Below the pieces are notes generated by a model, which did no database searches, had not been told where the DNA came from, and saw nothing but the letters and a program-made list of their open reading frames with translations. DNA of 36,871 bases. Source: an uncultured Clostridia bacterium. Its GTDB lineage: Bacteria; Bacillota; Clostridia; Oscillospirales; Acutalibacteraceae. Made by a program: the position numbers and the translations under genes. Where the stretch lies: NCBI GenBank assembly GCA_945983355.1, contig CAMFSU010000047.1, forward strand, positions 1 to 36,871, in the 5' to 3' direction. Shown piece after piece: positions 1,575 to 34,930 of the stretch. Each line of letters starts with the position of its first letter. Within the stretch, counting starts at the first letter, position 1.

Positions 1575-1584
1575 TTAATCACCT

Positions 1585-3744: not shown

Positions 3745-3769
3745 ATTCTACACCTTCCATTTATCCGAA

Positions 3770-5793: not shown

Positions 5794-5807
5794 TTTTAAT
5801 TTCTCCT

Positions 5808-7523: not shown

Positions 7524-7539
7524 AAATACAATTCCTCTT

Positions 7540-9690: not shown

Positions 9691-9720
9691 ATAAACCTCA
9701 CTATTAATATGTTTTAATAA

Positions 9721-10521: not shown

Positions 10522-10565
10522 GATTCCCCCCAAAAAACAAATTAAATAATTAAAAATATAATACA

Positions 10566-10604
10566 TTGCTTCAAGCAAAGTTTTTACAACTTTGCTTGAA
10601 GCAA
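10566..10604. other. Intercistronic hairpin, 17-bp perfect stem
   Basis: The arms 10566-10582 and 10588-10604 are perfectly complementary with a 5-base loop (tttac). The hairpin stands between the secreted GH16-dockerin gene and the cytoplasmic GH16 gene. On the minus strand it is followed by AATGTATTATATTTTT, which is U-rich but has no clean U-run. A weak terminator, an attenuator or an mRNA-processing or stability element are all possible. Confidence 0.6.
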
Positions 10605-10613
10605 GATATTACC

Positions 10614-10643
10614 CTATCCCTGCCCCGTAAGGAGCAGGGATAG
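10614..10643. other. GC-rich intercistronic hairpin
   Basis: The arms CTATCCCTGC (10614-10623) and GCAGGGATAG (10634-10643) pair over 10 bp. After one mismatch, two further C-G pairs can form inside. It lies just after the stop codon of the 1606-aa protein (minus strand) and just before the 17-bp hairpin. No U-tract follows directly, so it is more likely a 3' stabiliser or part of a tandem attenuator than a simple terminator. Confidence 0.55.
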
Positions 10644-10671
10644 TAGTTTTAAGACAACTTAGTCAAAAGTA

Positions 10672-13600: not shown

Positions 13601-15492
13601 TCACGCTTTGGTTCAGTTGCGGGTACGGTGATTGCAGCGCCGATTTCACCAACGCAGGGCTGTGAATAGTGGTTGTCATATTCTTTAAAGGATACTGCAT
13701 CAACAGGTGTCATTACAACATCATCAAAATAGATTTTGTTGCCAAAAACACTTGTGTTTGGCTGAATTTGGAAAATAGGTCTGTTTGTACCTTGACTGTT
13801 ATTATTTGGATAAGATTCTGCAGTAAAGTACATTGAGTAATTCTGCCATTCGGTTGTTAAATCTGCAATTCTGCTGCCCGAAGCATCGTATACACCGTCT
13901 ACTAAGTGATCAGAACGATTATTGAGAGCATAACTATAACCATTATATATGGCATAATTCATTGAAGCGGACTCTTCTGCTTTTGCTTTAAAGTCGAGTT
14001 TATAAACAGTGCCGGGTTCCATAACACCGCTTTCGCCCCAGCCATAATAACCAGTAATGGTACCATTACCCTTTGCGTAATTTGGTGCGATTGTGAAAGC
14101 AAAATCCTGTGCATTTGTAACAGTTGAAAAATCACCCTGTAAGTACTTGTTACCATCTACTTCATCAGTTAATACTGTCCAGTTAGTACTTGTATTTGTA
14201 TAACCGTTGACATAATTGCTAAAATTATTTTTTAACACAGCCTCATTTTTCTTAGGGAATGATTTTAAGGTTGGCAAAGTGTTGGTTGCTTTATCAGCCC
14301 AATTAGTAGAAGAACCAACATTTGCATAGAAAGTATCAAGATTATCAGTTATAAATGTTGTTTCATCTGCTACTTTTATAATGTTCGAATTTGCAAGTGC
14401 TGCCTCTGCACCTATAGAATAGCAGTTAGTTGTATTAAATACAGGTGACAGGTTTTCCTGAAGATTACCGGTAGCATTACCAGAGGCAATGTAAACCGCA
14501 CCGCCGGATGTCATAGATACTACTGAAACAGGGTTCATCGCACCAAATGTAAGCACGTTGGTTAAGGTTGCTGTTTTGCCCCAACCTATAGCTCCGAATA
14601 TTGCACCGGCATAACCTACGCAACGACTTGTTGCATAGTAATTTCTAAAGCTAGCAGTTACGTTTTTAACAACGGCATCTTTTACGGTCAAATTACCTGT
14701 TGAGTAACCGATAATACCGCCAACGCCAACCGGTTTACCTGTAGTGGAAAGGTTAGGTCTTGCTATATCAAAGTGAACATTTTCTACCTGAACATTTTCA
14801 AATGTAGTTGCTACATCACCATGAACATTACCTACCAAAGCGCCATATCCGTGATACTCAGCATTCTTATCTCCGGTTACATTGCTCTTAATATAAACAT
14901 CTTTAAGTTTAACATTTTTAAAGGTTGCACCGTAAACATAAGGGAATAAGCCCCATCCGCAGTATATTCTTTTATAGCCGGTTCCTGATGCGTTCATTGT
15001 ACCGGTACCGGTATAATCAATATAAAGACCCGAAATGGTATAACCCGCACCGTCAAAATTACCACGGAACAGGAATTCACCCATTTCGCGACCGTTCATT
15101 GTATCGGAAACTGCTGCTCCGTTTGCATCGGTTCCCTTAATCCAGTTTTGAAGTCCTGATTCTTCATACCAATTTTTATTGGTGCTGTCGTTAATTACAA
15201 TATCGTTACCGAGCTTATAATATTTTCCGGCACCGTTTGCATCACCTCTTGCAAGGTGACGAAGCTGAGCTGCTGTTGTAATAATATAAGGGTCATCAAC
15301 AGTACCGGTTCCTGAGGTGTATCCGGTAGTGCCTGTATTTGAATACCAATAGGTTATTCCATATTCAAGATAACGATAACCTGTATCTTCCGTTCCAGCA
15401 GCGGATAAGGTCAATGTGCCTAAAGAAGTAAAAGTTGAAAATACTAAAACAAAGCACAAAATAAGTGAAATGCTTTTTTTGATTGTTTTCAT
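10672..15492 (-). CDS. Secreted multimodular GH16 protein with InlB-type repeats and internal dockerin
   Basis: This 1606-aa protein starts at the ATG at 15492, with GGAGG 7 bases upstream; a TTG at 15498 is less likely. A signal peptide covers about 1-32. Residues about 40-400 form a beta-helix-like region with GLUG-like repeats (YGALVGN, GVGGIIGYSTGN), shared with the 1378-aa protein. Then come three alternating pairs of a carbohydrate-binding-like beta module (about 421-598, 669-841, 918-1095) and an InlB B-repeat/Flg_new domain (GYKFDGWYTDEDC type). A further beta-rich region follows. A dockerin has two calcium loops, DVNGDGTSNVVD from Asp1289 and DLSDDGLVNNND from Asp1321. The C-terminus (about 1350-1606) is a GH16 domain with GEIDIFEA: Glu1457, Asp1459, Glu1462. 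It probably binds and cuts a polysaccharide outside the cell. A dockerin ahead of the catalytic domain is unusual, and no cohesin was recognised nearby. Confidence 0.9.
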   Translation of the reverse strand: MKTIKKSISLILCFVLVFSTFTSLGTLTLSAAGTEDTGYRYLEYGITYWYSNTGTTGYTSGTGTVDDPYIITTAAQLRHLARGDANGAGKYYKLGNDIVINDSTNKNWYEESGLQNWIKGTDANGAAVSDTMNGREMGEFLFRGNFDGAGYTISGLYIDYTGTGTMNASGTGYKRIYCGWGLFPYVYGATFKNVKLKDVYIKSNVTGDKNAEYHGYGALVGNVHGDVATTFENVQVENVHFDIARPNLSTTGKPVGVGGIIGYSTGNLTVKDAVVKNVTASFRNYYATSRCVGYAGAIFGAIGWGKTATLTNVLTFGAMNPVSVVSMTSGGAVYIASGNATGNLQENLSPVFNTTNCYSIGAEAALANSNIIKVADETTFITDNLDTFYANVGSSTNWADKATNTLPTLKSFPKKNEAVLKNNFSNYVNGYTNTSTNWTVLTDEVDGNKYLQGDFSTVTNAQDFAFTIAPNYAKGNGTITGYYGWGESGVMEPGTVYKLDFKAKAEESASMNYAIYNGYSYALNNRSDHLVDGVYDASGSRIADLTTEWQNYSMYFTAESYPNNNSQGTNRPIFQIQPNTSVFGNKIYFDDVVMTPVDAVSFKEYDNHYSQPCVGEIGAAITVPATEPKRDGYKFDGWYTDEDCTVALDTETTKIGDITVAYAKWVEAEQPILSLNFSNYINNSSNTSTNWTVGSEGNNNYLKGTTSASTQAYGFGFTLVDNSVTNYTWGVNGPLVPGTTYMVTFNAKAKNNCIIDYAVYNGYSYAKNSSDKHKYLGSNGYYIYEKTGNLASLTGEWTTFTAYFTADEFVDPDNGGVNRPVFYITNRDDAIWDNEFYFDDFEITPCEGYLSFHLYDGKYSQPCVGEIGQDITLPNNPKRTGYAFRGWYTDVDCTVALDTETTKIGDITVAYAKWEEGEEPVLNLDFSNYINGSSNTDSFWSVVTEDTNKYLKGTTSGNLNLSSFGFTLVDNSKQNYGWSDNGPLEPGKTYLITFKAKANKNCVIDYAIYNGYSYAKNSCDDHQYTDSKGITCVESTGNLASLTENWTEFYTYFTMESFVDPDNGGVNRPVFYITNRDVDVWNNEFYFDDFVITPCEGNAIGFNAYGNHFTKPYIADKDSAILLPGDPERKDYIFTGWYTNKDCTAAFNADTTKVGTVYVLYAGWTEAVTDMNVANASLSDVGNGIYAANLGTKVTNANAYAINFDINTNGNTVAVGIATASASGFGVAKNIIWQRNINANGTVSIFVKPNVIKENAVKGDTLYIFVDNSNVTVSNVKMIDAPVRNIEGDVNGDGTSNVVDLLDLKLMRNAIADEIQTWLYDLSDDGLVNNNDLVICREGLLGLDKIVKTKGDRTLVWNEEFNGTELSDKVSRLYSSDLKAYQSFDEQNIFIKDGKINLNMTKVNGVDYKVPYELGTLDKMSFKRGYLEMRAKINLSKGQWAAFWLSGLGGETNYRGEIDIFEAMPEGSSLRPNVHSWLDGERQAQLGEDYVEFYEYSADFNKTEYHTYGFEWTETELKFYVDDYCYETINISAVEGISYPGANYTRTYPFADVFNQYYYFRISNMAYSDTEEYGEYILTYDDALPEMSVDYIRLYQKTGESIDIAE
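12261..12810 (-). repeat. Coding repeat unit, copy 1 (module 3 region)
   Basis: Within the 1606-aa gene, 12261-12321 and 12750-12810 are each identical over 61 bases to 13008-13068 and 13497-13557. The offset is 747 bp (249 codons) in both cases. This marks a duplicated binding-module/InlB-repeat unit. Confidence 0.85.
13008..13557 (-). repeat. Coding repeat unit, copy 2 (module 2 region)
   Basis: This is the partner of the copy at 12261-12810, exactly 747 bp away. Both ends of the stretch keep 61 identical bases while the middle has diverged. The upstream unit (about 13560-14230) is related in protein but clearly more diverged. Confidence 0.85.
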
Positions 15493-15564
15493 AATCAATC
15501 CTCCAATTAATATTTTTTATTTGCCAAGGAAAAAATTTTTGTCTTTTTTATACCATAAAGACAA

Positions 15565-16479
15565 TTATCCTGTAATACCCACCCTATCAATAGAGCGAAC
15601 AAATTTTCTTTGGAAAATTGCGTATAATACAAGCGGGATAGCAACGTAAATAACGCAAGCCGCACAAACGTAAGCGGGATATTCAGGTTTTCCAAGGAAC
15701 ATACCAAGCATTTGTAAATATGTCGGTAATGCCGCCATTACTGATGCCAACGGACGTCCGTCAGACATAAAGCAAAGGTCGGCAATGTAGTTTTCGTTCC
15801 AATGCCAAATAAATGACAGCACCGAAACAGTTAAAATTACAACGCCCGATGAAGGTAATGCAATTTTGAAATATGTCTTAAGCGGACCTGCGCCATCAAC
15901 AAATGCAGCTTCTTCAAGTTCCTTAGGTAAGCCTTCATAGAACTGACGGTAAATAAATATTATCATACCGCCACGAACACCCACACCAAACAGTGATGGC
16001 AAATAATACACAAACGGTGTATCAAAAATACCAAGGTTTCTATAAGTTACTGAAAGCGACAAGCTATACATTTGAATTGGTACTAAAAGCAGTAAAATCA
16101 GCAAAACGCTTTCAAACTTTTTAAGCTTGAAGTTATAACGTGCAAGACCGTAACCCGCAAAAGAGCACATAAATACTTCAATTGCAGCACTTACAATTTG
16201 AATTGAAAGTGTTTTAACAAATGCAGGGCCAAACTGTGCAATTTCCCATACTTCCTTGAATCTGTCCATTGTCCAATAAGCAGGAAGCCAAATTCTTGCA
16301 ATGTTAAGGAAGTCATCCTGCGATTTTATAGAATTGCTTATCATATAAAAAAGCGGATACAAAATTACAAACCCAACTAATGACAAAAACAAGTATCTAA
16401 ACACTGAAATTCCAAACGAGTATGATGCTTTTTTAACTGTGTGCTTATCTATTTTCTTGGGTAAGGTAAACTTTTTCAT
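15565..16479 (-). CDS. CUT1 ABC sugar transporter permease, MalG-like
   Basis: This 304-aa inner subunit has about six membrane segments. The cytoplasmic EAA loop reads EEAAFVDGAGPLKTYFKIALP, which docks to the ATPase. It is the last transporter gene before the secreted GH16-dockerin gene. The ATG at 16479 is chosen because GGGGGTGATGCT precedes it and it follows the stop of the upstream permease by only 4 bases; a longer frame to 16548 would run deep into that gene. It forms a heterodimer with the product of 16484-17377. CUT1 systems import oligosaccharides using a binding protein and a shared MsmK-type ATPase, which is not in this window. Confidence 0.92.
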   Translation of the reverse strand: MKKFTLPKKIDKHTVKKASYSFGISVFRYLFLSLVGFVILYPLFYMISNSIKSQDDFLNIARIWLPAYWTMDRFKEVWEIAQFGPAFVKTLSIQIVSAAIEVFMCSFAGYGLARYNFKLKKFESVLLILLLLVPIQMYSLSLSVTYRNLGIFDTPFVYYLPSLFGVGVRGGMIIFIYRQFYEGLPKELEEAAFVDGAGPLKTYFKIALPSSGVVILTVSVLSFIWHWNENYIADLCFMSDGRPLASVMAALPTYLQMLGMFLGKPEYPAYVCAACVIYVAIPLVLYAIFQRKFVRSIDRVGITG

Positions 16480-16483
16480 AGCA

Positions 16484-17377
16484 TCACCCCCATTTCTTAA
16501 GGAATTTACTGAATATGAACATAACGGCGGCAATAACCAAGCCCACAATTACAAAATAGAACCATAGCACAGCCGAGCCAACGCCATATTCAATATTACC
16601 AAAGTAAGCATAACCCTGTTCCATTACCGGATTAGTATTGATAGTTACAACTTCAACCAAGGTGAAGATTACAACCAATAACATTGTACGAATCATCATA
16701 GGAAGGGTTATAAACCAAAACTGTTCCCACTTTGTTGCACCTTCAACATGTGCAACCTCGTAAAGTAAGTCGGGTATAGTTTGAAGACCTGCGATTATAA
16801 GCACTATTTGAATACCGCTTTGCCAAATAAGCAAAAAGATATTATCAAGTGCTATTGTTAAATATTTTAAAATTGATGATGGAAGATTTAATCCCTCAAG
16901 CACACTCGAAAAGTCAATCATACCAAACGAAACGCTGGCAGAAGTTGCAATTTCGGTAGAATCGCCTTGAGATGCTTCTAAGAACAAATTCAAAACAACG
17001 CCGCTCGCAATAATAACAGGTAAGAAGTAAAGCGAACGGTAAATCATTCTTCCCTTAAACTCGTTATTAAGCAAAATGCCCAAAATCAAGCTAAGTATAA
17101 GAATAAAAGGAACCTGAATAAAAATATTCTTAAGTCCTGCTCCAAGATTGTTGATATATTGGGGATTTTCATTCAAAATGAAATTATAGTTTTTTAAACC
17201 AACCCAATCCACAAGAACGCGACCCGGTTCAATACTAAGACTTGAGAAAGAATATATTGCTGATTGAATAATAGGTAAAATGAAGAACACTGCCACACCT
17301 ATTAACCAAGGCAAAGTAAACAGGAAGCCATAGCGTGATTTTAAACTTTCAATACCTTTTATCTTTTTATTTTTCAT
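16484..17377 (-). CDS. CUT1 ABC sugar transporter permease, MalF-like
   Basis: This permease of about 297 aa has a long hydrophobic N-terminal segment (FLFTLPWLIGVAVFFILPII) and the EAA-type loop LYEVAHVEGATKWEQFWF. It pairs with the MalG-like gene that follows 4 bp later. The ATG at 17377 has AGGAG 10 bases upstream. A GTG at 17386 overlaps the stop of the DUF5696 gene (GTGA) but sits only one base from the AGGAG, so it is less likely. Either start implies translational coupling to the DUF5696 lipoprotein. Compared with typical MalF-like proteins, it has an extra extracellular-looking segment at about 145-165. The imported sugar is unknown. Confidence 0.9.
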   Translation of the reverse strand: MKNKKIKGIESLKSRYGFLFTLPWLIGVAVFFILPIIQSAIYSFSSLSIEPGRVLVDWVGLKNYNFILNENPQYINNLGAGLKNIFIQVPFILILSLILGILLNNEFKGRMIYRSLYFLPVIIASGVVLNLFLEASQGDSTEIATSASVSFGMIDFSSVLEGLNLPSSILKYLTIALDNIFLLIWQSGIQIVLIIAGLQTIPDLLYEVAHVEGATKWEQFWFITLPMMIRTMLLVVIFTLVEVVTINTNPVMEQGYAYFGNIEYGVGSAVLWFYFVIVGLVIAAVMFIFSKFLKKWG

Positions 17378-17382
17378 TCTAA

Positions 17383-19620
17383 TCACGCTCCTGTAATAAA
17401 GCTTTGAGCTTTAACTACGCCAAATTCTGATTCATAATCAGTATCACCGTAGTTAACAACTGCCCAAACGCCATTGTCAAACTCAGTTATTTTTACATAC
17501 TCATTTACAATGGTATATTTGGAAATTTCGGCACCCTTAATACTGTTAAAATACTTAGAGGTTGCCTTAACATCGTTAACAAAAGCTTCCTTTTGGTTTT
17601 CGTAAACACTACCCCAAATAATTGTATGATTAGAGTTTCTAAGCTCGTTTTCATAGTTTGCAATAATTGTATATGATGGTGTAGTTCCCGATTCAATACA
17701 GCTAAGTAACGAATCCTTTGACTCAGCAGTGATATTAAGTGATATCGAGCTCATCGGCTTATAGCCCTTAAATACCATTTGATAGAAAGGAACCGAATAA
17801 GTCTGGAAATCAAACTTTGAAGAGGTTAATGGGCAATCGGTTAAAATATCTGAAACTGATGCCGCATAATCGTTAGCCGAAGCCGAAGAAATAGTAAGGT
17901 TTTTATTTTTAGCTGTTGCTAAAATTTCCTTAACATCAACTACCATATTCTTAACATTGCGGTATTTGTTATAGGTATAATCCGAATAAATTGTGCTTGC
18001 AAGTGAGTTGAAGGAAATACCAGCGTTTTCTACCTTTGAAAGCTTCTTAACACCCTTATTAGCAGCTTTTGATAATTCACTTCTTGCAAGGATATGGTAG
18101 CCATCAGTATAAGCAACGTGGCTAACCGTATTAAGCTGACCAAAGGTTAAGGACAACTTATTTGGTGCTTTAGCTGAATCACTGCCCTTTGTAAATCCCG
18201 CACCTGATTTTGCAAAGGAAATAATGTCAAAATCAAAGTATGAATTTACACCAAGCTTATTAAGATGGCTTACAAGCTTTTTATATCCGCCGAAGCCCCC
18301 AAGTTTAGAAGCAACGGTAAAGCCACCGCCAACTATGCCTTCATCAATACCGCTTTTGCCAAAGCCGACTAAATTTAACGAAAAGTCAGAGCCAATGCTC
18401 TTATTAATTTCATCGGTAATTTCAATTACCTGCTTTGTGGTTGTAAGCGGGAAAAGCTTTGTGGTAGGGATACCCAAGAAGAAATCAGGCTGAACAGTAG
18501 CACCGACAAACTTATAGTTAGCTATAGTTTCCTTTGCGTTGGATTTTGTAAGGCCGTGGGTTTTTTCAAGATATTCTCTATAAACCTTTGCCATACCTGT
18601 AAGGTTAGCATCTTCCTTCTTTAAAGCCTTATAATCAACCTGGAATACGCTTTCCACAACCGATTCATCAAAAAACTGAATGTAGTTAAGTGCAGTCCAA
18701 CCAAAGCCATTAGGTGTTTTTTCCAAGCTATAGCCACGAAGTCTATAGAAAGGGTAAACACTTGAGAAGCCAACAGTTGATGAACCCATATTCCAACAAA
18801 TTGAAGACTGTTCAGCGCCCGAAGAAATTATAGCAACCAAGCCACCTGTTTCTCTGGCCGAACCGAATACAGGCATTTTAACCTGCTGCTTTACAGCTTC
18901 ATAATAATACTGATGTACCGAAAGGTCATCGCCGTAAACCTTCATTTTACCCTCAACGCCCATTGAACCGATGGTTGTAGGTTTGATGACCGCACCACTA
19001 CCGTCGGGCATAAACATCCAATCAGTAGGATGATCATTTTCGACACCGCAGATAAAAGGTAAAACACTTACGCCCGTAATATAGTTAACACCGTCGTCCG
19101 ACATTTTACGAGGGTCAACAATTGTGCTAAAGGTGTCACCGTTAAGCACATAGTCAACAGTCACGCTAAAGCTATTTTCATAAAAATCGTAAGTTACTGA
19201 AAGGCCGTTTTCAATCTCGTTAACCCAAACGTTACCGTTTTGAACGGCACCTTCGTACGAATATGCATATTTTTCAGCAAGCGTACTTGCTTCCTTATAA
19301 TATACATAAACTGCACTTCTAATTGAATTTGTTAAAGTCATATCGGAATTTAGTGCTTTTTCAGGAATTTGACCCCAAATATTGCCTGTTTGCTTATCCA
19401 TAAAGCTTACAAGCTTATTAGCGTCATCCCAAATAAGCTGCCAATATTCGTTTTCACAAACGACACCGCTGTCGTAATAGTTCGAGCTAAATGCATCCTC
19501 GTTATAGTAAGGCAAATAAATAGCACGACTTTTAGGGTTTGAAGCGCATCCCGCAAAGCAGGCGCAAATCACACAAAAAACTACAGCGATAGAAATTAAG
19601 CGAAATAATAATTTTTTCAT
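17383..19620 (-). CDS. DUF5696-type lipoprotein, possible glycoside-hydrolase-like fold
   Basis: This 745-aa protein has a lipoprotein signal: a basic start, a hydrophobic core and the lipobox CFAGC within the first 25 residues, so it is anchored outside the membrane. The segment DWMFMPDGSGAVIKP (about 199-213) is characteristic of DUF5696 proteins, which I know mainly from genes beside CUT1 permeases in Clostridia and Paenibacillus. The N-terminal half is beta-rich. The second half shows a TIM-barrel-like pattern with NLVGFGKSGIDEG, then LGGFGGYKKL, then YFDFDI, resembling GH101/GH36-like barrels. SVPFYQMVFKGYKPMSS follows later. I infer a surface-exposed enzyme or binding protein that feeds the transporter. 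No catalytic residues can be assigned firmly and no activity is established. Confidence 0.75.
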   Translation of the reverse strand: MKKLLFRLISIAVVFCVICACFAGCASNPKSRAIYLPYYNEDAFSSNYYDSGVVCENEYWQLIWDDANKLVSFMDKQTGNIWGQIPEKALNSDMTLTNSIRSAVYVYYKEASTLAEKYAYSYEGAVQNGNVWVNEIENGLSVTYDFYENSFSVTVDYVLNGDTFSTIVDPRKMSDDGVNYITGVSVLPFICGVENDHPTDWMFMPDGSGAVIKPTTIGSMGVEGKMKVYGDDLSVHQYYYEAVKQQVKMPVFGSARETGGLVAIISSGAEQSSICWNMGSSTVGFSSVYPFYRLRGYSLEKTPNGFGWTALNYIQFFDESVVESVFQVDYKALKKEDANLTGMAKVYREYLEKTHGLTKSNAKETIANYKFVGATVQPDFFLGIPTTKLFPLTTTKQVIEITDEINKSIGSDFSLNLVGFGKSGIDEGIVGGGFTVASKLGGFGGYKKLVSHLNKLGVNSYFDFDIISFAKSGAGFTKGSDSAKAPNKLSLTFGQLNTVSHVAYTDGYHILARSELSKAANKGVKKLSKVENAGISFNSLASTIYSDYTYNKYRNVKNMVVDVKEILATAKNKNLTISSASANDYAASVSDILTDCPLTSSKFDFQTYSVPFYQMVFKGYKPMSSISLNITAESKDSLLSCIESGTTPSYTIIANYENELRNSNHTIIWGSVYENQKEAFVNDVKATSKYFNSIKGAEISKYTIVNEYVKITEFDNGVWAVVNYGDTDYESEFGVVKAQSFITGA

Positions 19621-19636
19621 AAATTTGCCCCTTTCC

Positions 19637-21769
19637 TTAACCGCTGATTAGTTCGTTTATTACGGTAAGAATCCAACCGTAAACTTGTTGTGAAAGCATA
19701 AATATAATAAAGATAATAAATACTACAACAAGCATTGCGCCTATTGTTAGAAGTGTTGTTCCGATAAATTTCAAAAGTGAATAATCGTGAACCTTCATAA
19801 CACCTACAGCAATCATCAAAAATGTGTATACTGTGCAAATTGTCGAGAAGATTGTAACAAATACAAATTCATCAGGAACAAGTATGTTAGAAAGCACTAC
19901 TCTTAATACAGTTGAGAAAATAATTGGCACCAAGCTATAACAGGTAATAACGTAAATTTCCTTCATTTTACCTATACCGCCAAGCAATACACATACAAGC
20001 CAGTTGGATATTACCCAAAGTGCAACCAAACCGATTGTACTTAAGAATACGAAGAACGAGTTATAGGTAGCAGCATCAAAGCTGTTATAAGCAAAGCCTG
20101 AAGCAACATCCGAAACAGCAGAAACCAAATAAAATAAAACAAGTAACACCGTTGCTATAACAACTGAACCCATTTTCTTTTCCTTTAAGGCTTCAAACGC
20201 TTCAAACGGATGGAAAATGCTCTTCTTTAAAAGAAGTACTTCCTGATTTTTAATTAAAACAATACCGTTTTTCTTTTTATAACGGCCAAATAAAATAGCA
20301 GCAACTATTAATACAATAAGTAAAATAGAGCCCGGTACAAAAAGTTTTGCTAAAATGTCACCACGTGAATTTTCGAAAGCATCGGCATAAACCTCGCGGT
20401 CGTTAGCAAGCCTTGCAAATTCTAAAGCGCCCTTATTATCGCCCTTTACAAATAATGCACGGGCAAGACCACTATAACCAAGCTGACTATTAGCATCTTG
20501 AGCTATAACCTGCTTCCATTCGGCTTCGGCGGCTTCATAATCGTCAGCTAAGGTTTTAACCTGTGCTGAACGAACCAATGCACCGTATTCAGTAATTGAG
20601 AAAACAGTAATGTTCTTTCTGCTGCTATCGGCAACAATTACATCGGTACCGTTAACTGCAATTGCATTTGCAATCGCGAAGGTGCCTTCTTGCTCACCTA
20701 TACCAAGTGAACCGCCGAATACTGACAACAAATTACATTCCTTATCGTACCAAAAAACTTTACCATAACGGAAATCTAATATGTAGAAAAATCCATCAGC
20801 ATCTACATCAATGCTTTCAATACCTTGGTGCTGCATTTGACCGTTGTGATTAGTAACCTCTAAATCAGCAAAATTAAATGAATCTTTGCCTAAGGTATCC
20901 TTACCACCCGGATTTAAAATGTGAACCTGACCCTTTGATTCACCGCTTTTACCTGCTGTTGCAGTATAAATAAAATCGTCAGGGCCTGCAACCAAATCGT
21001 TAATTTGGAAAGGCAAAGCCAATACCGAAGAACCCTTTTTAGTATCGTTTGAGAATAAACGGTCGAAAATGGTTTTAAGTACAGTAGAAGCCGAAGCAGC
21101 TACATTATTTGCACCGTAAAAGCCCATAAATTCTTCATTGGCAGAATAAACCAATGCGCCGTAAAACGAGCCATCACTTGCAACGTAAACAGTATTTGAG
21201 CTGTCAACTGCAACTTTTACAGGCTTATAATCAAAGCCCTCAGGAATCAATCTTGAATCTGGCAAGGTAAGAGTTTTAATATGCTTACCTTCAAGGTCAC
21301 AAATTAAAATTCTTGCATTTTTAGTGTCGGCAATATAAATTTTTCCGTCTTTAACGAAAACACCCTTTGCCCCGTTAAAAGTATAATCCTTGACACCCTT
21401 TACGGTAGTAATAGTACCTTTAAGTTTATAAGACGAATCTAAGATATATATAATTGAGGCTTCACCGTCAAGGATATAGGTGTTATTGTCTTCATCAGCA
21501 AAAATATCATCTACACTGGTAAAAGGAGCAAGTCCCAAATCAACGCCGTCAATTACTTGCTTTACTTTATACATTGGCTTACTTGGAACCGCTGTTTTAG
21601 AATTGGTGCCAAAATCCTGCCAATAGGTATAAGAAATAAAGCTACCTTGTTGAGAATCAACCGAAGATGTTGGAGAAGATTCCGCAAAAGCGTTAATAGC
21701 AAACACAAAAATCAATGCGATGCTAAGTAAAACGACTAATAATTTTTTAATTAAAAAACTTTGTTTCAC
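19637..21769 (-). CDS. NHL-repeat / TPR / YIP1-domain membrane protein
   Basis: This 710-aa protein starts with GTG at 21769, preceded by GGAGAG at 5 bases, and has a signal peptide at about 1-29. An extracellular region (about 60-400) shows NHL beta-propeller-like repeats such as DIFADEDNNTYILDG and SIDVDADGFFYILDFRYG. A TPR-like helical pair follows (YEAAEAEWKQVIAQDANSQLGYSGLARAL, about 404-432, cited here as one region). Then there is a membrane segment (about 468-490) and a YIP1-type domain with four to five membrane helices (about 515-706). Proteins of this layout occur beside DUF5696 and CUT1 genes in Firmicutes, but the function is not established. It lies between the two permease pairs with gaps of about 15 bp, suggesting a structural or sensing partner of the transporter. 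Confidence 0.8.
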   Translation of the reverse strand: MKQSFLIKKLLVVLLSIALIFVFAINAFAESSPTSSVDSQQGSFISYTYWQDFGTNSKTAVPSKPMYKVKQVIDGVDLGLAPFTSVDDIFADEDNNTYILDGEASIIYILDSSYKLKGTITTVKGVKDYTFNGAKGVFVKDGKIYIADTKNARILICDLEGKHIKTLTLPDSRLIPEGFDYKPVKVAVDSSNTVYVASDGSFYGALVYSANEEFMGFYGANNVAASASTVLKTIFDRLFSNDTKKGSSVLALPFQINDLVAGPDDFIYTATAGKSGESKGQVHILNPGGKDTLGKDSFNFADLEVTNHNGQMQHQGIESIDVDADGFFYILDFRYGKVFWYDKECNLLSVFGGSLGIGEQEGTFAIANAIAVNGTDVIVADSSRKNITVFSITEYGALVRSAQVKTLADDYEAAEAEWKQVIAQDANSQLGYSGLARALFVKGDNKGALEFARLANDREVYADAFENSRGDILAKLFVPGSILLIVLIVAAILFGRYKKKNGIVLIKNQEVLLLKKSIFHPFEAFEALKEKKMGSVVIATVLLVLFYLVSAVSDVASGFAYNSFDAATYNSFFVFLSTIGLVALWVISNWLVCVLLGGIGKMKEIYVITCYSLVPIIFSTVLRVVLSNILVPDEFVFVTIFSTICTVYTFLMIAVGVMKVHDYSLLKFIGTTLLTIGAMLVVVFIIFIIFMLSQQVYGWILTVINELISG

Positions 21770-21783
21770 TTACTCTCTCCTCC

Positions 21784-22680
21784 TTATCCCTTAATGCCTG
21801 CGCTACTCATTGATTCTTTAAGACTGCCTTGAGAAATAAAGTAAACAATGATTGGGGGAATCATCATAAGTACCGAGTTAGCCATTGCCGCACCCGAACG
21901 CGCAAGACCGCCAGAAACAACCGTTGACATTACCATAGGTAAGGTCTTGAGAGTTTCACTAAATATTGTACCTTGCGGAACAAGCGACCACATATCTCTA
22001 AACGAGAACAAGGTCAAAGTCAAAAGACATGGCTTAACGCATGGGAAAATAATTGTCCAGAAGGTACGAATCCAACCCGCGCCGTCAATTTTAGCTGCTT
22101 CAATAAGTGCATCAGGCACATAGCCGTCCATATACTGTTTCATAAGAAATACACCCATCGAGGACGGAATAGCGGGCAAAATGTAAGCCCACAAGGTGTC
22201 AATAATACCCATACCGCTGTATATAAGGTAACGCGGTATCATAAGAGTATAAGCATTAAAAAGAAGCGACAGCTGAACAACCATAAAGATTATGTTTTTG
22301 TACTTAATTTTCGACTTAGAAAGTACAAACGCAGCAGAAGCCGAAGCTAATACGTGCAAAACTGTACCAACAGTTGTTACAAACAAGCTGTTAAACGCAT
22401 AAATTGAAAACGGAACCTCTAAGCTTTCAATTAAGCTTGGAAGAATTAAATAGTTTTCAAGTGTGGGTCTTTTTACAATAAATAACGAAGGGGGGAAAAT
22501 TAGCAATTCGTCAAGTGGCTTAAATGATGTAACAATACTGTAAACTAAAGGTATCACCGAAAATGCACCGAACAAGAACAGGCAAAAGAAGAAGAAAAAA
22601 TTACCAAATCGGGACCTTGTATATCTTTTTACCTGTGCCTGTGAATGCACCTTCATTTTCTTTCTTTTTATCTCAGCCAT
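21784..22680 (-). CDS. CUT1 ABC sugar transporter permease, MalG-like
   Basis: This 298-aa permease has six predicted membrane segments and the EAA loop LIEAAKIDGAGWIRTFWTIIFP (about residues 192-213). The ATG at 22680 is one base after the stop of the upstream permease, with AAGGTGG 9 bases away. A GTG at 22689 touches that ribosome binding site and is less likely. The N-terminus is basic and cytoplasmic. It forms a pair with 22682-23581 and follows the module-fused binding protein, so these three genes make one transporter set. The next gene is the NHL-YIP1 protein, 14 bp on. Confidence 0.92.
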   Translation of the reverse strand: MAEIKRKKMKVHSQAQVKRYTRSRFGNFFFFFCLFLFGAFSVIPLVYSIVTSFKPLDELLIFPPSLFIVKRPTLENYLILPSLIESLEVPFSIYAFNSLFVTTVGTVLHVLASASAAFVLSKSKIKYKNIIFMVVQLSLLFNAYTLMIPRYLIYSGMGIIDTLWAYILPAIPSSMGVFLMKQYMDGYVPDALIEAAKIDGAGWIRTFWTIIFPCVKPCLLTLTLFSFRDMWSLVPQGTIFSETLKTLPMVMSTVVSGGLARSGAAMANSVLMMIPPIIVYFISQGSLKESMSSAGIKG

Positions 22681-22681
22681 G

Positions 22682-23581
22682 TTATTCACCCACCTTATTA
22701 AGCAAGCTTACAAACAGCTTTCTTGCACCAAACATAAGGGCAAATAAAATAACCGAAAGTGCCGAAGCATAACCCATTTCGTATTTAACCGAACCAACGT
22801 CATTAAGATAAGAAACAATTGTATCTGCAGCATAATTTACTGTCGGATAACCAGCAAGTTGTGTAATAATACCACTGATTGAGAATGCACTTGCAATTGT
22901 CATAACGGCACTAAACAAAAGCATACTCTTCATACCAGGTAAAGTGATATACCACAATTCTTGCCAACGGTTTCTAATACCGTCAACTGCACCTGCTTCA
23001 TATAATTCAGGATTAACATTTTGTAATGATGAAATGTTTGCAAGGAAAGATACACCCATACTTGACCACAACTGAACTGCAACTACGATAGGGATAATTG
23101 CTGTTGCATTTGAAAGCCATTGAATAGGTGCGGTTATAATACCAAGTGATAAAAGCACGGCATTTACATAACCGTAGCTATCGCCCGAAAACGCAATTGT
23201 CCAAATAAGAAGACCACCGCCGGTGAGCGCAGGTACGTAGAACATAAACGAAAGTAGTGTACGTAAGAAGGGTCCTAATTCGTTTATCATCCATGCAAGC
23301 ACAAAAGCAAGCAAGAAACCGGCAGGACCGGTAAGAATTGCGAGAACAATGGTATTCTTTAAAACTGTTAAGAAAATATCATCTTCGGTAAACATTCTGA
23401 TATAGTTACCTAAACCTGCAAATTTTGGTAGTGATACCATATCAAAATTGAAAAAGCTTAATACTGCGCTGGAAAGTACAGGCAAAACTGTTAAAAGGAA
23501 GAACAATAAGAGAAACGGTGCTAACAAAACATAAAGTTCCCAGTTTTGCTTCATTGTGTTTAAAGTGTTTTTAAACTTCAT
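22682..23581 (-). CDS. CUT1 ABC sugar transporter permease, MalF-like
   Basis: This 299-aa permease has a basic N-terminus, six membrane segments and the EAA-type loop YEAGAVDGIRNRWQELWY (about 200-217). The latter part of that loop is less canonical than in the partner. GGGAGG lies about 6 bases before the ATG at 23581, and the gene is 11 bp downstream of the binding-protein gene at 23593-26442, its probable partner. It should form the membrane channel with the MalG-like subunit at 21784-22680. The energy-coupling ATPase is absent from the window. Confidence 0.92.
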   Translation of the reverse strand: MKFKNTLNTMKQNWELYVLLAPFLLLFFLLTVLPVLSSAVLSFFNFDMVSLPKFAGLGNYIRMFTEDDIFLTVLKNTIVLAILTGPAGFLLAFVLAWMINELGPFLRTLLSFMFYVPALTGGGLLIWTIAFSGDSYGYVNAVLLSLGIITAPIQWLSNATAIIPIVVAVQLWSSMGVSFLANISSLQNVNPELYEAGAVDGIRNRWQELWYITLPGMKSMLLFSAVMTIASAFSISGIITQLAGYPTVNYAADTIVSYLNDVGSVKYEMGYASALSVILFALMFGARKLFVSLLNKVGE

Positions 23582-23592
23582 ATTATTCCTCC

Positions 23593-26442
23593 CTACTTCG
23601 AATATTCTTTGATTTTTCTTTCAATTTCACGGTCGCTGACCTCAGCCCACTTAATCATTGCTTCACGGGGTGAGTCAGTCTTATTCTTAACTGCCCAGAA
23701 TGCCTGGTCAATAGAACGTGCAACGTAATAGCTACCGGGAACTTCTGCTACCTCGGTAACATTATTCCATTGATTCATAATAACCTCTAAGGTTTCGGGG
23801 TCCCAAGAAAGACGCTTAACTGCGTTAACATTAGCAGAGCTCACACGTGCTGTTTCGCCTAAAACCGCCTCAACATCGCGTGAATAACGATATTGAACAT
23901 CTTCAGATACCCACCACTTAAGGAATTCCCAAGCTGCTTCTTTTTCGTCACTGTTATTCATAATCGCACAGCCCGAGCCAGAACCTGCACAGGTACGGTT
24001 GATATTACCGTTTTCATCCACCATACCGGGTATTTCAGCGATTTTCCACTTACCATCAATTTCAGGAGCACCAGCGCTGATAGTAAAACAGGTTGTATAA
24101 TTTGTGATACCCAAAGGATATACACCTGCACGGAACTTGTTATAGAAGTCTGCCTGCGGTTCTAATCCATAACGGGTATAGAAATCGGTCCAGAAATTAA
24201 AGGTTTTAACTGCTGTTGTACCTGCAAGTGCAGTTGCATTTTGTTCGTCATTATAGATAGAACCGCCCATTTGCATAAGAAGCGATGGATAGAAAGTAAG
24301 TCCGCCTACACCAACGTCAACCGTTGCGGTAGATGCAAGTTTAATATAGGGCAAATACACATTCATCTTATTGCGCTGTAATACTGCTGTAGTTTGAATA
24401 AATTCATCCCAAGTCTTAGGCACCTTAAGACCTAACTTATTTAAGATATCTTCACGGTAGAACATTACGTTGAATTGCTGCATATCAGGTAGTGCATAGC
24501 AACCACCCTTATATAAATAAGGTATTTCAGAACCCTTATGGAAGTTCTTTGCGATTACTTCATCATAATCATCAAAGTTTTTAAGATCATAAAGTACGCC
24601 ACGCATTGCAAGGTTTACAGGTTGTGAACGGCTTAAATGCAGGTAAAGGTCAGGTGAATTTCCTGAAATTACACCCTGTACCAAGGTTGCATTTACCTGT
24701 TCAATTACAACATCAATGTCATTGTTTGCCATAAAATCGCTGTAAATAAGGTTAGATAAAATCTTAACCTGGTCACGACCCCAGTTTACCCAAATTTTAA
24801 TGGTCTTACGGCCTTCAGTGCTGCCAACCTTATCGTTTGTATAATCTTTCATATAAGCATATACAAAACGTTTGAATCCAAACACCAAACCCTCCCAAAA
24901 TGAAGCTTTAGGTGTATCAAATTCGCTGTCGGGTGCACCTATGATAATTTGGTCGATGCCCAAAGGCATTTGACGCATATCATAAAGCCAAGCACTTAGT
25001 GTTTGTTGTGCAGATGAGAAAGAAGTGACCTGTGTGTGCGCTTCGTAAAGGTTGCCTGTCATTTCATCAATGATACGAATCATATTATTAAGCGCGCCTT
25101 CAATTTCACCATTAACAGAAAGTTCTTTACCAATTGAATTGTTAAGAGCTTTAAGTTCTTTATTTGAATCTTCAAGAATTTGAATGAAATTCGGTACCTG
25201 TTTATGTAATTCATAGTCGCGGTTTGCGTCAGGGCTTTCGCCTGTTATCATAAGAATATCTAAATAAAGGTTGCCCAAATCCTCAACAACAACACCCAAA
25301 CGGTTTAAAAGCTCGGAAGTATCTGCCAAGGTGACCGACATTGAAATTTCATGAGGGCCTTCGGTGAGATATACCATATACGGCTCTTTTCCCTTTTCGC
25401 CATATTCCTTAAACTGCCAAGAACCACCGTAGTTAAAACCTATTTTTGAAGCTTCAGCAAATGGTGTTTTACCATCAATTTTAAGCCAACGATATGTTTC
25501 ACCGTTAGTAACATAGCTTTGGTTAAAAGAAAAACCTATTTTATAAAGCCCGTCCTTTGGAGCATTAAATTCCCAAGCAATTGTATCACCGGGTGCACTC
25601 CAAACCTCACCACCAATGTAGTTGATAACTGAATTTTTAGGACTACTTGGTGACACATTAGCGCTTGCACGGTCACTTTTGGGTGAAAGTGATGCCGAAT
25701 CACGCCAAACGGAATTCTCACCTTCAATTACTATTTGTGCGCCGTCATATTTTTGGTATTTACCATAACTTGAAGACACCTTGTCATAGCTTTCGAGAAC
25801 TTCGGGTGCAGTTAAAATAATATTAGATAAATAGAATTCATTTTCAAGACAGGTAACCTTAATTTCGTGCTTGCCCTTAGAAAGCATAAATTCATAGGGC
25901 TTTAAAATAAGGCCGTTATTATCTTTAAGTATGCTCGAAGAATAATCTTCTGTATGCTTTTGGGAAGGCGCAATTTGGTCACCGTTTGGAAGCTCACGGA
26001 TATCCCCGTCATCCTCCCAAACCGAATAGAAGGTAATATCTTCACAGTTAGCAAACGGGGTTTTACCGTCAATGCTAAGTGAAATATGATATTCTTCGGT
26101 TGATTCCTTAACATCAGCAAAAATTGCTTTTATATTGTAAGCGGCATCTGCGGGTACATCCACAGTAAATACCGCATAATTTTCAGCTTTAAGTAATACT
26201 GAATTTTTACCGCTATATTCAGAAACGTCTCCATCGGTAGATGATAACTTTGTGTTAACGTCCTTTGATGCTGCTGAATAGCCAAATTTTTTAATATAAT
26301 TCCCGTAATCAGCTATGGAAACGCTTTCCACCTTATCTCCCGTGATTGTATTAGTGTCAGTTTTTGCAGCACTAACGGTCAAGCATGATAAAATAAGCGA
26401 AAAACAAACACAAGCAGCCGTTATTCGTGAAAAATATTTCAT
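23593..26442 (-). CDS. Extracellular solute-binding protein with N-terminal jelly-roll-like modules
   Basis: This 949-aa protein is about twice the usual size of a CUT1 binding protein. After a signal peptide (about 1-26) come two beta-rich regions, about 30-215 and about 235-400. Both contain the phrase IDGKTPFA and a KGKHEI / EGPHEI strand, typical of CBM6/CBM35-like jelly rolls. A helical linker spans about 410-550. The C-terminal part (about 555-949) is a family-1 solute-binding protein: TIKIWVNWGRDQV, NSPDLYLHL, MFYREDILNKLGLKVPKTWDEF. Anchoring is unclear. LILSC at 16-20 is a permissive lipobox, while VSAAK allows ordinary signal-peptidase cleavage. It probably captures a large or branched oligosaccharide for the permease pair 11 bp downstream. 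Confidence 0.88.
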   Translation of the reverse strand: MKYFSRITAACVCFSLILSCLTVSAAKTDTNTITGDKVESVSIADYGNYIKKFGYSAASKDVNTKLSSTDGDVSEYSGKNSVLLKAENYAVFTVDVPADAAYNIKAIFADVKESTEEYHISLSIDGKTPFANCEDITFYSVWEDDGDIRELPNGDQIAPSQKHTEDYSSSILKDNNGLILKPYEFMLSKGKHEIKVTCLENEFYLSNIILTAPEVLESYDKVSSSYGKYQKYDGAQIVIEGENSVWRDSASLSPKSDRASANVSPSSPKNSVINYIGGEVWSAPGDTIAWEFNAPKDGLYKIGFSFNQSYVTNGETYRWLKIDGKTPFAEASKIGFNYGGSWQFKEYGEKGKEPYMVYLTEGPHEISMSVTLADTSELLNRLGVVVEDLGNLYLDILMITGESPDANRDYELHKQVPNFIQILEDSNKELKALNNSIGKELSVNGEIEGALNNMIRIIDEMTGNLYEAHTQVTSFSSAQQTLSAWLYDMRQMPLGIDQIIIGAPDSEFDTPKASFWEGLVFGFKRFVYAYMKDYTNDKVGSTEGRKTIKIWVNWGRDQVKILSNLIYSDFMANNDIDVVIEQVNATLVQGVISGNSPDLYLHLSRSQPVNLAMRGVLYDLKNFDDYDEVIAKNFHKGSEIPYLYKGGCYALPDMQQFNVMFYREDILNKLGLKVPKTWDEFIQTTAVLQRNKMNVYLPYIKLASTATVDVGVGGLTFYPSLLMQMGGSIYNDEQNATALAGTTAVKTFNFWTDFYTRYGLEPQADFYNKFRAGVYPLGITNYTTCFTISAGAPEIDGKWKIAEIPGMVDENGNINRTCAGSGSGCAIMNNSDEKEAAWEFLKWWVSEDVQYRYSRDVEAVLGETARVSSANVNAVKRLSWDPETLEVIMNQWNNVTEVAEVPGSYYVARSIDQAFWAVKNKTDSPREAMIKWAEVSDREIERKIKEYSK

Positions 26443-26553: not shown

Positions 26554-29214
26554 TTAATCAGCTAAATAGTCCCAAACTCTTTGACGTTCGCCGTTCTTTT
26601 GGAAAATGCGTACATAGTCAGTGTATTGTGTCACTTCAAAATCAAGTAATTCCTGAATACCGCCAGCATCGCCAGGATAATTTCCGAATGTATAGAAACC
26701 GCCTGTAACATCTAAATCCATTTCGGGAGCAATCTTTTGTTCGAATGCATACCATTTCTCTTCAGTCATAGGAACTGCACAGAAAATTTCACCATCGAGA
26801 TAGAAGTCAAGATAATCGGCATTCCATTCTATACCGATATAGTGGAATGCATCGTAGAAGTTTTCACCAACAGGAGGCTTAGCACTTATACGAACGAAAT
26901 CGTTAACACTGTTGTGGTCGGTATGATTTGTGTTGTAATTTGCCCAAGTATGAAGATTGGGGTTTAAATTAGAACCACCAAAGGTTTCATAAAGGTCAAT
27001 TTCACAACCGTCTGCCAAACCGGAAGCAGCAGTAAACCAAAGATTAGCTGTTGCACCCTTATAGGAACCAACCATTTGACGAGCCTCAAAAATACCATAA
27101 CGGAAGCTCATTGATTTCTTGGTATCTAAACGTGAACGCCAGAAGCCTGTATTAACATCAAATTTTGTTGTTTGATATAAAAGGTTATTTTTTACGCCGT
27201 AGGTTTTACCAAAACCGCCTTGATACATTTTACCAAAGGGATAATAGTCACCGTGTTGCTCATCCTCAGTTTTTGTACCTAAAAGCGTTCTGAGCGGGTC
27301 TGTAAGGTCAAGCTCTAAAAGCTCTTTAACCAATTTACTTTCAGGATCATAATAAACTTGTGGCACACTGTCACCACCTGCCGGAGCATTATCATCCCAA
27401 TAATCAAGTTTATTATCAATTGGTGTGCCATCAATGGTTGATGAAAGGAATTCATCGCTCCAAGCGAGACCGTAACCATCAGAAAGACCGTACTTGCTTA
27501 TATCATTAGCAGTGGTATATGCGCCACTCTTGGTGAATGTTGCAGGAACTGCTTTTGAAGTTGCAAATTCGTTCATAACAAGACCAGTAGCAAAGTTTGC
27601 AGCGTAGTCACTACCTGCTTCTATAAAGAGCTTACCATCTTTATAGAAAACTTTATACTGTTCAGGAGCATAACCGTTTACATAGTCAAGAGATTCGCTC
27701 TTGAATACTGAAGCGTCAACGCCTGAACGTTCGGTAAGACCAACTAAGATTTCGTTAGCGGTTGTTTTTTGGTCGTTTTCAACCGGAACAACAATACCAC
27801 AAGTTTCAATAAAGTAGTTTGCTAAGTTTTTAGCAGCGCGCTTTGTAAGGATTGAAGGATATTTTTCGGTACGGATAACATACTTAGAAACATCCACACC
27901 ACCAATAGAAAGTGACTCAACCTTAGGACGACTTACGTGATACATATCAGCGGGAACAGCACTATTATCATCCTTTAAATAAGTTGTAAAGAAGAAGTTG
28001 AGTGCTTTTTCAAGTGCACTTTCAGAACCCGCAGCAATTACTACGTGCTTGCCTGTAACCTTAACGATATAGTCGTTAGCATAGTTCTTTCTGTAACCCT
28101 TAAGTGCGCTGTATGCTTCTTTTGAAGCAGCACGATTGGTTTCGCCAATAAGAATTTCATAATCAGAAGCGGGGAAATTTGCAGTGTTATCAGTCTTTAA
28201 TCTTACGGATGCTTCCAAAGTCTTTTCTAAAGTAGTGAAAGCATTGTTACCAAGCTTCTGAACTGCGATTGATGCATTTTCTGGATATACAACTTCGAAT
28301 CTTGAAGTGTAACCATCAATAAATGTAATTTCTTTGGTTTCGGGAACAATAACAGGTGTTTCATCAATAACGGGAGTATCGTCGTCATCGTCGTCATCGT
28401 CAGTATCGTTACCGTAAATTTCGTCAGCTAATTCACCGTTAAGCTGAATACCAAAGGTGATAATGTTGCCTTCTTTTACGGGGAGGTCATAGAAAGCGGG
28501 ATATTCAAGGAAGGTAACCTCTTCCCCATTTTCGCCAACGCCCTTACCAAATTCACCAGACCATAAAACAGTGTTGTTAATCATAATATTAACAACTGCG
28601 GTGCGGATAGAGCCGTCTTCGTTATCTAAGAAACCGGTTTCAACACCGCCAACAGACTTAACCATTGTTAAAGTGCCTGCTGGAATTTCTAAAGAACCGT
28701 CACTACCAACAACATAGGAAATACCTTCCTGTCTATCGCCTGAGGTTGAAAGCAATAAGCCAGCTTCGGGCAGAGTATTGTCATTATAGGTCTTAACATC
28801 AAGCACGCTTGTGTTATAGCACATAACAGATACTGTACCGTCTTGAGTGTATGAATAAGCTTTAAGCTTATTATCGGAAACGCTTGCGCGGTTACGCCAG
28901 CTATCAAGAGCGTAGGTATCACGAAGTTTCCACTCACTGCCTAATTTTGAAATCCACTTCCAAGAAGTATCATTTGAAAGTGCAGTTAATGTATGAGCTT
29001 TCGCGTCGGCTGAAATAGCAGTATTAATATCATTAAACGCTACAACCGATTCCCCATCTAAATAGAATATGGGGTTAAATGCCACAACCGCCTGAGCTTC
29101 CTTACCTTCGGGGAATTGGGGTTCTTTTTGAGAACCCCCACCGAATGTACATCCACTAAGGACAAATGTCATAACAAGGAAAAGTGATATTATTTTAAGA
29201 AATGATTTTTTCAT
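26554..29214 (-). CDS. GH16 lipoprotein with GH67N/hexosaminidase-N-like domains
   Basis: This 886-aa protein carries a lipoprotein signal with lipobox LSGC (Cys22). A beta-rich region of about 30-270 is followed by an Asp-rich linker (eight Asp in a row, near 275-285). Two alpha/beta regions, about 290-410 and 425-565, contain EILIGETNR / EILVGLTER plus a terminal VVIAAGSESALEKALNFF-like pattern. This pattern resembles the non-catalytic N-terminal domain of GH67 and GH20 enzymes. The C-terminus (about 580-886) is a GH16 domain with CEIDLYETFGG: Glu738, Asp740 and Glu743 in ExDxxE spacing. It should be tethered to the outer face of the membrane and make the first cuts in the polysaccharide. 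The domain naming in the middle is by pattern only. Confidence 0.87.
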   Translation of the reverse strand: MKKSFLKIISLFLVMTFVLSGCTFGGGSQKEPQFPEGKEAQAVVAFNPIFYLDGESVVAFNDINTAISADAKAHTLTALSNDTSWKWISKLGSEWKLRDTYALDSWRNRASVSDNKLKAYSYTQDGTVSVMCYNTSVLDVKTYNDNTLPEAGLLLSTSGDRQEGISYVVGSDGSLEIPAGTLTMVKSVGGVETGFLDNEDGSIRTAVVNIMINNTVLWSGEFGKGVGENGEEVTFLEYPAFYDLPVKEGNIITFGIQLNGELADEIYGNDTDDDDDDDDTPVIDETPVIVPETKEITFIDGYTSRFEVVYPENASIAVQKLGNNAFTTLEKTLEASVRLKTDNTANFPASDYEILIGETNRAASKEAYSALKGYRKNYANDYIVKVTGKHVVIAAGSESALEKALNFFFTTYLKDDNSAVPADMYHVSRPKVESLSIGGVDVSKYVIRTEKYPSILTKRAAKNLANYFIETCGIVVPVENDQKTTANEILVGLTERSGVDASVFKSESLDYVNGYAPEQYKVFYKDGKLFIEAGSDYAANFATGLVMNEFATSKAVPATFTKSGAYTTANDISKYGLSDGYGLAWSDEFLSSTIDGTPIDNKLDYWDDNAPAGGDSVPQVYYDPESKLVKELLELDLTDPLRTLLGTKTEDEQHGDYYPFGKMYQGGFGKTYGVKNNLLYQTTKFDVNTGFWRSRLDTKKSMSFRYGIFEARQMVGSYKGATANLWFTAASGLADGCEIDLYETFGGSNLNPNLHTWANYNTNHTDHNSVNDFVRISAKPPVGENFYDAFHYIGIEWNADYLDFYLDGEIFCAVPMTEEKWYAFEQKIAPEMDLDVTGGFYTFGNYPGDAGGIQELLDFEVTQYTDYVRIFQKNGERQRVWDYLAD

Positions 29215-34877: not shown

Positions 34878-34930
34878 AATTTTTCCTCCTATAAAAATAA
34901 TTGATAGCTGCTTCAAATACATGTAAATAA

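Follow-up and report, generated by a model that had tools for sequence, protein, structure and literature searches.

The contig CAMFSU010000047.1 of an uncultured Clostridia bacterium (36,871 bases, analysed over its entire length and called the window below; genome of 1.57 Mb in 62 contigs) carries a cassette of seven genes that may represent a standardised platform of the Bacillota for the import of glycans (oligosaccharides or polysaccharides). Our reading, to which we give a probability of roughly 0.55, is that the cassette encodes two coupled CUT1-type ATP-binding cassette (ABC) importers, with a DUF5696 protein acting as surface receptor and an NHL-TPR-Yip1 protein as membrane scaffold. 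A first-pass annotation had proposed a tightly packed seven-gene import system between positions 15565 and 26442. Open reading frames (ORFs) together with Pfam and NCBIfam matches confirmed all seven genes on the minus strand, in the proposed order: a substrate-binding protein (SBP) fused to an N-terminal module, the permease genes f1 and g1 (pair 1), the NHL-TPR-Yip1 gene, the DUF5696 gene and the permease genes f2 and g2 (pair 2). The proposal that the system is undescribed also stands as far as titles and the beginnings of abstracts in the open-access literature can tell, since no description of the cassette was found there.

Apart from the last junction, the genes are separated by gaps of 11, 14 and 16 bases or overlap by 8 and 4 bases. 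For g2, the listed TTG start at 16548 results in an overlap of 65 bases with f2; an ATG at 16479, 4 bases past the end of f2, is likely the true start. Between positions 15300 and 26700 we counted 46 promoter-like sites (33.9 in shuffled sequences, standard deviation 6.4) and 9 terminator-like sites (9.6 expected), numbers that neither back nor contradict an operon.

Conservation was surveyed in 80 named loci and another 60 taken from relatives at the genus and order level, all picked by their DUF5696 gene, and the neighbourhoods were read with profiles built from the window proteins. A six-frame scan yielded 141 DUF5696 units, 120 of them with sufficient flanking sequence. All parts of the cassette were present in 115 of these 120 neighbourhoods, which is not a count of independent events because some loci come from the same or near-identical genomes (for instance L033 and L120). 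Upstream of DUF5696, Yip1 and NHL were found in 120 units each, a permease pair in 119 and the N-terminal module of the SBP in 119, and a permease pair followed downstream in 116; the permease labels come from custom profiles that cross-recognise one another. From pair 2 only f2 was seen in L170 and L172, and L078 is devoid of the fusion and pair 1. Among the window genome and 59 relatives, DUF5696 passed the cut-off in 43 of 60 genomes, with a maximum of 14 matches, 13 of them full-length, in a genome of the window's genus. Yip1 was located upstream on the same strand in 91 of 96 DUF5696 matches of at least 150 bits, and DUF5696 was located downstream in 91 of 100 Yip1 matches; one of the five DUF5696 genes lacking a Yip1 match (G031:C22, locus L124) does have an NHL-Yip1 gene according to the custom profiles. 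Control genomes contained Yip1 in 7 of 14 cases and DUF5696 above the cut-off in none of 14. Yip1 alone is thus common and becomes informative only when paired with NHL and DUF5696.

A phylum-wide sample of 398 evenly drawn genomes, in which apparently up to three candidates per genome were scored, contained 39 genomes passing the DUF5696 cut-off, 37 with full-length proteins (window genome included) and two with short ones only. One locus each was taken from 35 of the 37, leaving out G000 and G054, which were already covered; the 35 loci span 14 families according to the family labels of the tool used. NHL, Yip1, DUF5696, f2 and g2 were present in all 35. The fusion and pair 1 were found in 27, upstream in 22 and downstream in five (L197, L205 and L211-L213), and five of the eight loci without them have less than 6 kb of upstream sequence. 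In public annotation, a plasmid from Butyrivibrio fibrisolvens and one from Paenibacillus cellulosilyticus have the same gene order. The 243-kb B. fibrisolvens plasmid pNP243 (L229) carries a complete cassette with two more SBP genes downstream and a glycoside hydrolase (GH) gene of family GH43 upstream; the set can therefore reside on extrachromosomal DNA. Chance clustering was ruled out by the recurrence of the set in Paenibacillaceae, Clostridia and the 14 families of the phylum sample. The neighbourhood survey thus revealed clear co-occurrence of these genes, and not the lack of it that would have counted against the first-pass annotation, and the candidate import system is upheld.

The two permease pairs belong to different subfamilies. 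A branch with 100/99 support separates f1 from f2 and one with 100/98 support separates g1 from g2, in trees of 36 representatives and other permeases for which the program warned of long branches. Several sub-groups recur by eye, in the rows listed, on both sides of the trees (window with L152 and L167; L124 with L125 and L129), which is the pattern expected under joint inheritance of the two pairs. Rows labelled as other permeases also fell inside both sides; they are mostly cassette permeases from cassettes left incomplete by the ORF caller. When family profiles were compared with the PDB, the closest solved relative of f1 was AlgM1 (2.3e-31; next hit 1.1e-18) and that of f2 the 7cad permease (2.6e-21). 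The window f2 is a clear permease according to NCBIfam and the family profile, despite having no Pfam match.

The EAA loop, the docking site of the ATPase, is present in the consensus of f1, g1, f2 and g2 from 101 complete cassettes. An ATPase gene is absent from the cassette. OB_MalK matches were detected in 51 of the 60 genomes, mostly one per genome; the genome in which DUF5696 matched 14 times has a single one, and genome G000 has two, both outside the cassette. On the P. cellulosilyticus plasmid (L230, NZ_CP054609.1), ugpC is located directly upstream of the cassette; a search with Paenibacillus UgpC against 178 sources gave five weak matches in four sources (76-108 bits). Each half of the cassette thus comes with the components of a CUT1 importer, namely an SBP of the SBP_bac_1/8 fold, two permeases of the BPD_transp_1 kind with EAA loops and a MalK/UgpC-type ATPase in the genome.

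The fusion consists of an N-terminal part of about 510 residues, found in 130 of the 141 units, and an SBP core (residues ~540-949). The family profile of the core is closest to Lin1841 among solved structures (2.7e-34), and that of the N-terminal part matches residues 396-519 of CITase (5x7g, 3.8e-10), which we take to be the CBM35 domain of this enzyme. Of 25 N-terminal parts, 12 matched Pfam CBM_35 at E<=0.01, with 1e-5 as the best value; the matches listed for the window protein comprise a weak Golvesin_C hit and no CBM_35. The N-terminal part is probably composed of two beta-sandwich domains resembling CBM35, plus a helical linker.

DUF5696 has the fold of GH129 glycosidases: an N-terminal beta-sandwich, a TIM-like barrel and a C-terminal beta domain. 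Judged from its sequence, the window protein lacks both catalytic carboxylates, with N538/S539 and A580/S581 at the two sites and an acid in neither register. The Asp and Glu that are invariant among four aligned GH129 proteins are not conserved in the family: the nucleophile column contains Asp in 7 of 101 proteins, the acid/base column (Glu of the GTE motif) contains Glu in 15 and Asp in 14, and acidic residues are near neither site in 19. Two alignment methods concur on these columns. DUF5696 likely descends from GH129, and an ordinary enzyme with GH129 chemistry is disfavoured by the columns; it is retained as a rival in the following form. Many members could be active surface glycosidases with shifted catalytic residues that trim the glycan before import, and some DUF5696 proteins may indeed be enzymes, since acidic residues lie close to the catalytic columns in part of the family. 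The column adjoining the nucleophile position contains Asp in 48 of 101 proteins, an acidic residue occupies one or the other of these two columns in 64, one is near the acid/base column in 37, and 19 have acidic residues near both sites. Together with the GH129 fold these counts speak for this rival; given the concurring alignments, the nucleophile column itself and the residues of the window protein, we nevertheless regard active glycosidases as rather unlikely. Weak DUF5696 matches below the cut-off occur in relatives and in two of the 14 control genomes. One in the window genome looked by eye like a GH13 branching enzyme (a family search was not run) and was taken to reflect the shared barrel fold.

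The AlphaFold2 model of the NHL-TPR-Yip1 protein (pLDDT 84.8, pTM 0.73) shows a signal or transmembrane segment, an NHL beta-propeller (residues 47-392), TPR-like helices (394-455) that are visible in the model only, a transmembrane helix (~476-500) and the Yip1 membrane domain. Foldseek matched the model to the NHL domain of TRIM2; the fold search returned NHL and other propellers and nothing attributable to the Yip1 part, which may nevertheless have a known fold. Hydropathy is a further line of evidence for the layout of the protein. NHL and Yip1 are encoded by two separate genes in 44 of the 101 complete cassettes, and 41 of the 44 split NHL proteins have a transmembrane helix beyond the signal. 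Because split and fused forms both exist, the two parts appear to act together. NHL and TPR domains commonly serve in protein-protein contacts, which would also suit a signalling or surface-attachment system made of NHL-Yip1 and DUF5696, with the permeases acting as sensor. In the cases studied, however, CUT1 permeases that depend on an SBP and have EAA loops have acted as importers, and neither a kinase nor a regulator was found inside the core among the complete cassettes listed, which makes such a system very improbable.

The arrangement that we favour consists of two modules. Module A would comprise the fusion and f1/g1, with the sandwich domains holding a glycan chain at the cell surface and the SBP core passing it on to the permeases. 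Module B would comprise the NHL-TPR-Yip1 protein, DUF5696 and f2/g2, usually together with a second SBP. DUF5696, mostly without the full GH129 catalytic pair, would bind or steer the chain without GH129-type cutting, and the NHL-TPR-Yip1 protein would cross the membrane, expose its propeller and TPR-like helices on the outer side and act as scaffold joining DUF5696 to the permeases. Both cores would be powered by the shared MalK/UgpC-type ATPase of the genome. The main point for coupling is that the two permease subfamilies are strictly paired across varied substrates. A bolder version is that the cassette forms one composite machine, in which two ABC cores sit side by side on the NHL-TPR-Yip1 scaffold, fed with chains by a glycosidase-turned-receptor and an SBP armed with carbohydrate-binding modules; such a machine would be a functional equivalent, in Gram-positive bacteria, of SusCD and an interchangeable platform for many glycans. 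We put it forward tentatively.

Several observations weigh against coupling and fit two ordinary, separate CUT1 importers that are merely encoded together and take up two kinds of fragments from one polysaccharide, the fusion SBP working with f1/g1 and the stand-alone SBP with f2/g2, and DUF5696 and NHL-Yip1 serving the second importer only. The strongest is that the halves are separable: three phylum-sample loci with at least 8 kb on both sides (L186, L189 and L194) contain module B without the fusion and pair 1, and in the five loci with downstream fusions module A is on the opposite side of module B. The genome of L186 (G264) carries other, complete cassettes, and L194 has another permease pair and two SBP genes downstream. 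Pair 2 is located upstream, away from DUF5696, in L137 and L142, and a second SBP gene is present in the same gene run in 73 of the 101 complete cassettes. The favoured arrangement also has other points against it. OB_MalK matches were absent from four genomes with DUF5696 above the cut-off (G005, G029, which is 96% complete, G030 and G059). Membrane anchoring is uncertain, as a lipobox fits a minority of the proteins (DUF5696: 44 of 101 with a loose and 32 with a placed pattern; fusions: 12 and 11 of 101). Downstream of the P. cellulosilyticus cassette are genes for three LLM-class flavin-dependent oxidoreductases, not glycosidases, and non-glycan or sulfonated (sulfosugar) ligands are therefore possible.

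Covariation among same-genome paralogues (22 non-independent pairs from 15 cassettes in four genomes) does not settle coupling either. Sequence identity across the pairs was lowest for DUF5696 (about 25%) and highest for f1 and g1 (about 44-48%). The fusion, f1 and g1 covary (r 0.72), as do f2 and g2 (0.64); the correlation of f2 with the former three is low (0.21-0.34), as expected for separate importers, yet g2 correlates with them at 0.55-0.62, so that the modules are not cleanly separated. The value for NHL and DUF5696 was 0.08. Distance correlations over the whole list (0.88-0.96) were set aside because they are inflated by shared species history. Importers with separate substrates should also mix; instead, these two subfamilies stay paired next to widely differing enzymes, and several sub-groups are common to the f1 and f2 trees and to the g1 and g2 trees. 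We consider separate importers possible, though less likely than coupled ones. The larger glycan-import complex of the first-pass annotation is accordingly supported in part, as a candidate import system but not as one single complex, since the genes also fit two adjacent ABC importers and the set came apart in three loci.

The enzymes encoded next to the cassette vary. Among 66 neighbour ORFs of the representatives, the 25 of 85 families listed include GH32 and GH38 (four each), rhamnosidase and GH43 (three each), GH30, GH2 and GH16 (two each) and others. The cassette is therefore presumably not bound to one glycan. The GH16 and GH3 genes, given what is established about these families, make beta-glucan utilisation the most likely function of the window locus.

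Ordinary CUT1 operons encode one binding protein and one permease pair. The cassette resembles CUT1 importers such as MalEFGK, LpqY-SugABC and MsmEFGK, the latter with the shared MsmX/UgpC ATPase, in its SBP_bac_1/8-type SBP, its MalF/MalG-like permeases with EAA loops and a MalK-type ATPase whose gene lies at another place in the genome; it differs in having permease pairs of two distinct subfamilies, usually two SBPs and the constant NHL-TPR-Yip1 and DUF5696 proteins. AlgM1M2SS-AlgQ of Sphingomonas sp. A1 imports long chains of alginate and is linked to the cassette by the sequence likeness of f1 to AlgM1, but it has one permease pair and its own ATPase and is not known to include NHL-Yip1 or DUF5696. 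GH129 glycosidases (NagBb of Bifidobacterium bifidum, ZgGH129 of Zobellia) share the fold of DUF5696 and not its variable catalytic positions. Lin1841 of Listeria innocua, the closest solved relative of the fusion core and presumably a beta-1,2-glucooligosaccharide binding protein, was solved as a chain of 397 residues without the long N-terminal part. The likeness to SusC/SusD of Bacteroidota concerns the proposed role only, a repeated surface import unit accompanied by varied glycosidases; the proteins differ throughout, and the constant genes of the cassette encode neither a TonB-dependent porin nor a SusD-type protein.

The cassette may be a main route of complex-glycan uptake in these Bacillota. 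DUF5696 gains a fold and a likely history, NHL-Yip1 proteins gain a context, and the need of a single locus for two ABC cores becomes a testable question. As the cassette adjoins changing sets of glycosidases, it can serve as a marker for loci of glycan use.

Table 1. Genes of the cassette and its surroundings in the window.
Feature	Position	Strand	Evidence
SBP fusion, 949 residues	23593..26442	-	Pfam SBP_bac_1 6.5e-21, residues 561-850
Permease f1, MalF-like, pair 1	22682..23581	-	BPD_transp_1 4.7e-8
Permease g1, MalG-like, pair 1	21784..22689	-	BPD_transp_1 1.3e-7; UgpE-like
NHL-TPR-Yip1 membrane protein, 710 residues	19637..21769	-	Pfam Yip1 4.1e-14, NHL 4.3e-10
DUF5696 predicted lipoprotein, 745 residues	17383..19620	-	DUF5696 6e-113
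Permease f2, MalF/UgpA-like, pair 2	16484..17386	-	NCBIfam UgpA 4.3e-11; no Pfam match
Permease g2, MalG/UgpE-like, pair 2	15565..16548	-	BPD_transp_1 1.1e-14
Stand-alone second SBP, 497 residues, heading the same gene run	33429..34922	-	SBP_bac_8 1e-14
GH16 enzyme, 886 residues, directly upstream of the cassette	26554..29214	-	Pfam Glyco_hydro_16
Downstream genes: GH16 with List_Bact repeats, GH16, GH3, GH123, 283-residue gene, amidohydrolase, GH3, BD-FAE esterase	744..15498	-	Pfam
Divergent AraC-type regulator	35608..36483	+	HTH_18, AraC_binding

Genes around the cassette (Table 1) also include one for GH39, identified with Pfam. Listeria-Bacteroides repeats are present in a 1378-residue protein at 29229-33365 and, together with a GH16 domain, in a 1608-residue protein at 10672-15498. 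The 283-residue gene at 4942-5793, between the amidohydrolase and GH123 genes, has no Pfam match.

Further pieces of cassettes are present in the window genome. Contig C31:1-7756 (L224) encodes a second fusion SBP, f1, a short g1 (frame of 240 residues) and an AraC regulator; no NHL-Yip1 or DUF5696 match was found on this 7.8-kb contig, and the locus is a partial or decayed cassette. On contig C53 (L225:11165-11599), a piece of the fusion N-terminal module with an in-frame stop lies beside GH28 and GH31 genes and may be what is left of a third cassette. A separate observation concerns L226:688-3588, where a 967-residue HEAT-repeat protein is encoded next to a GH28 gene, downstream of a complete cassette.

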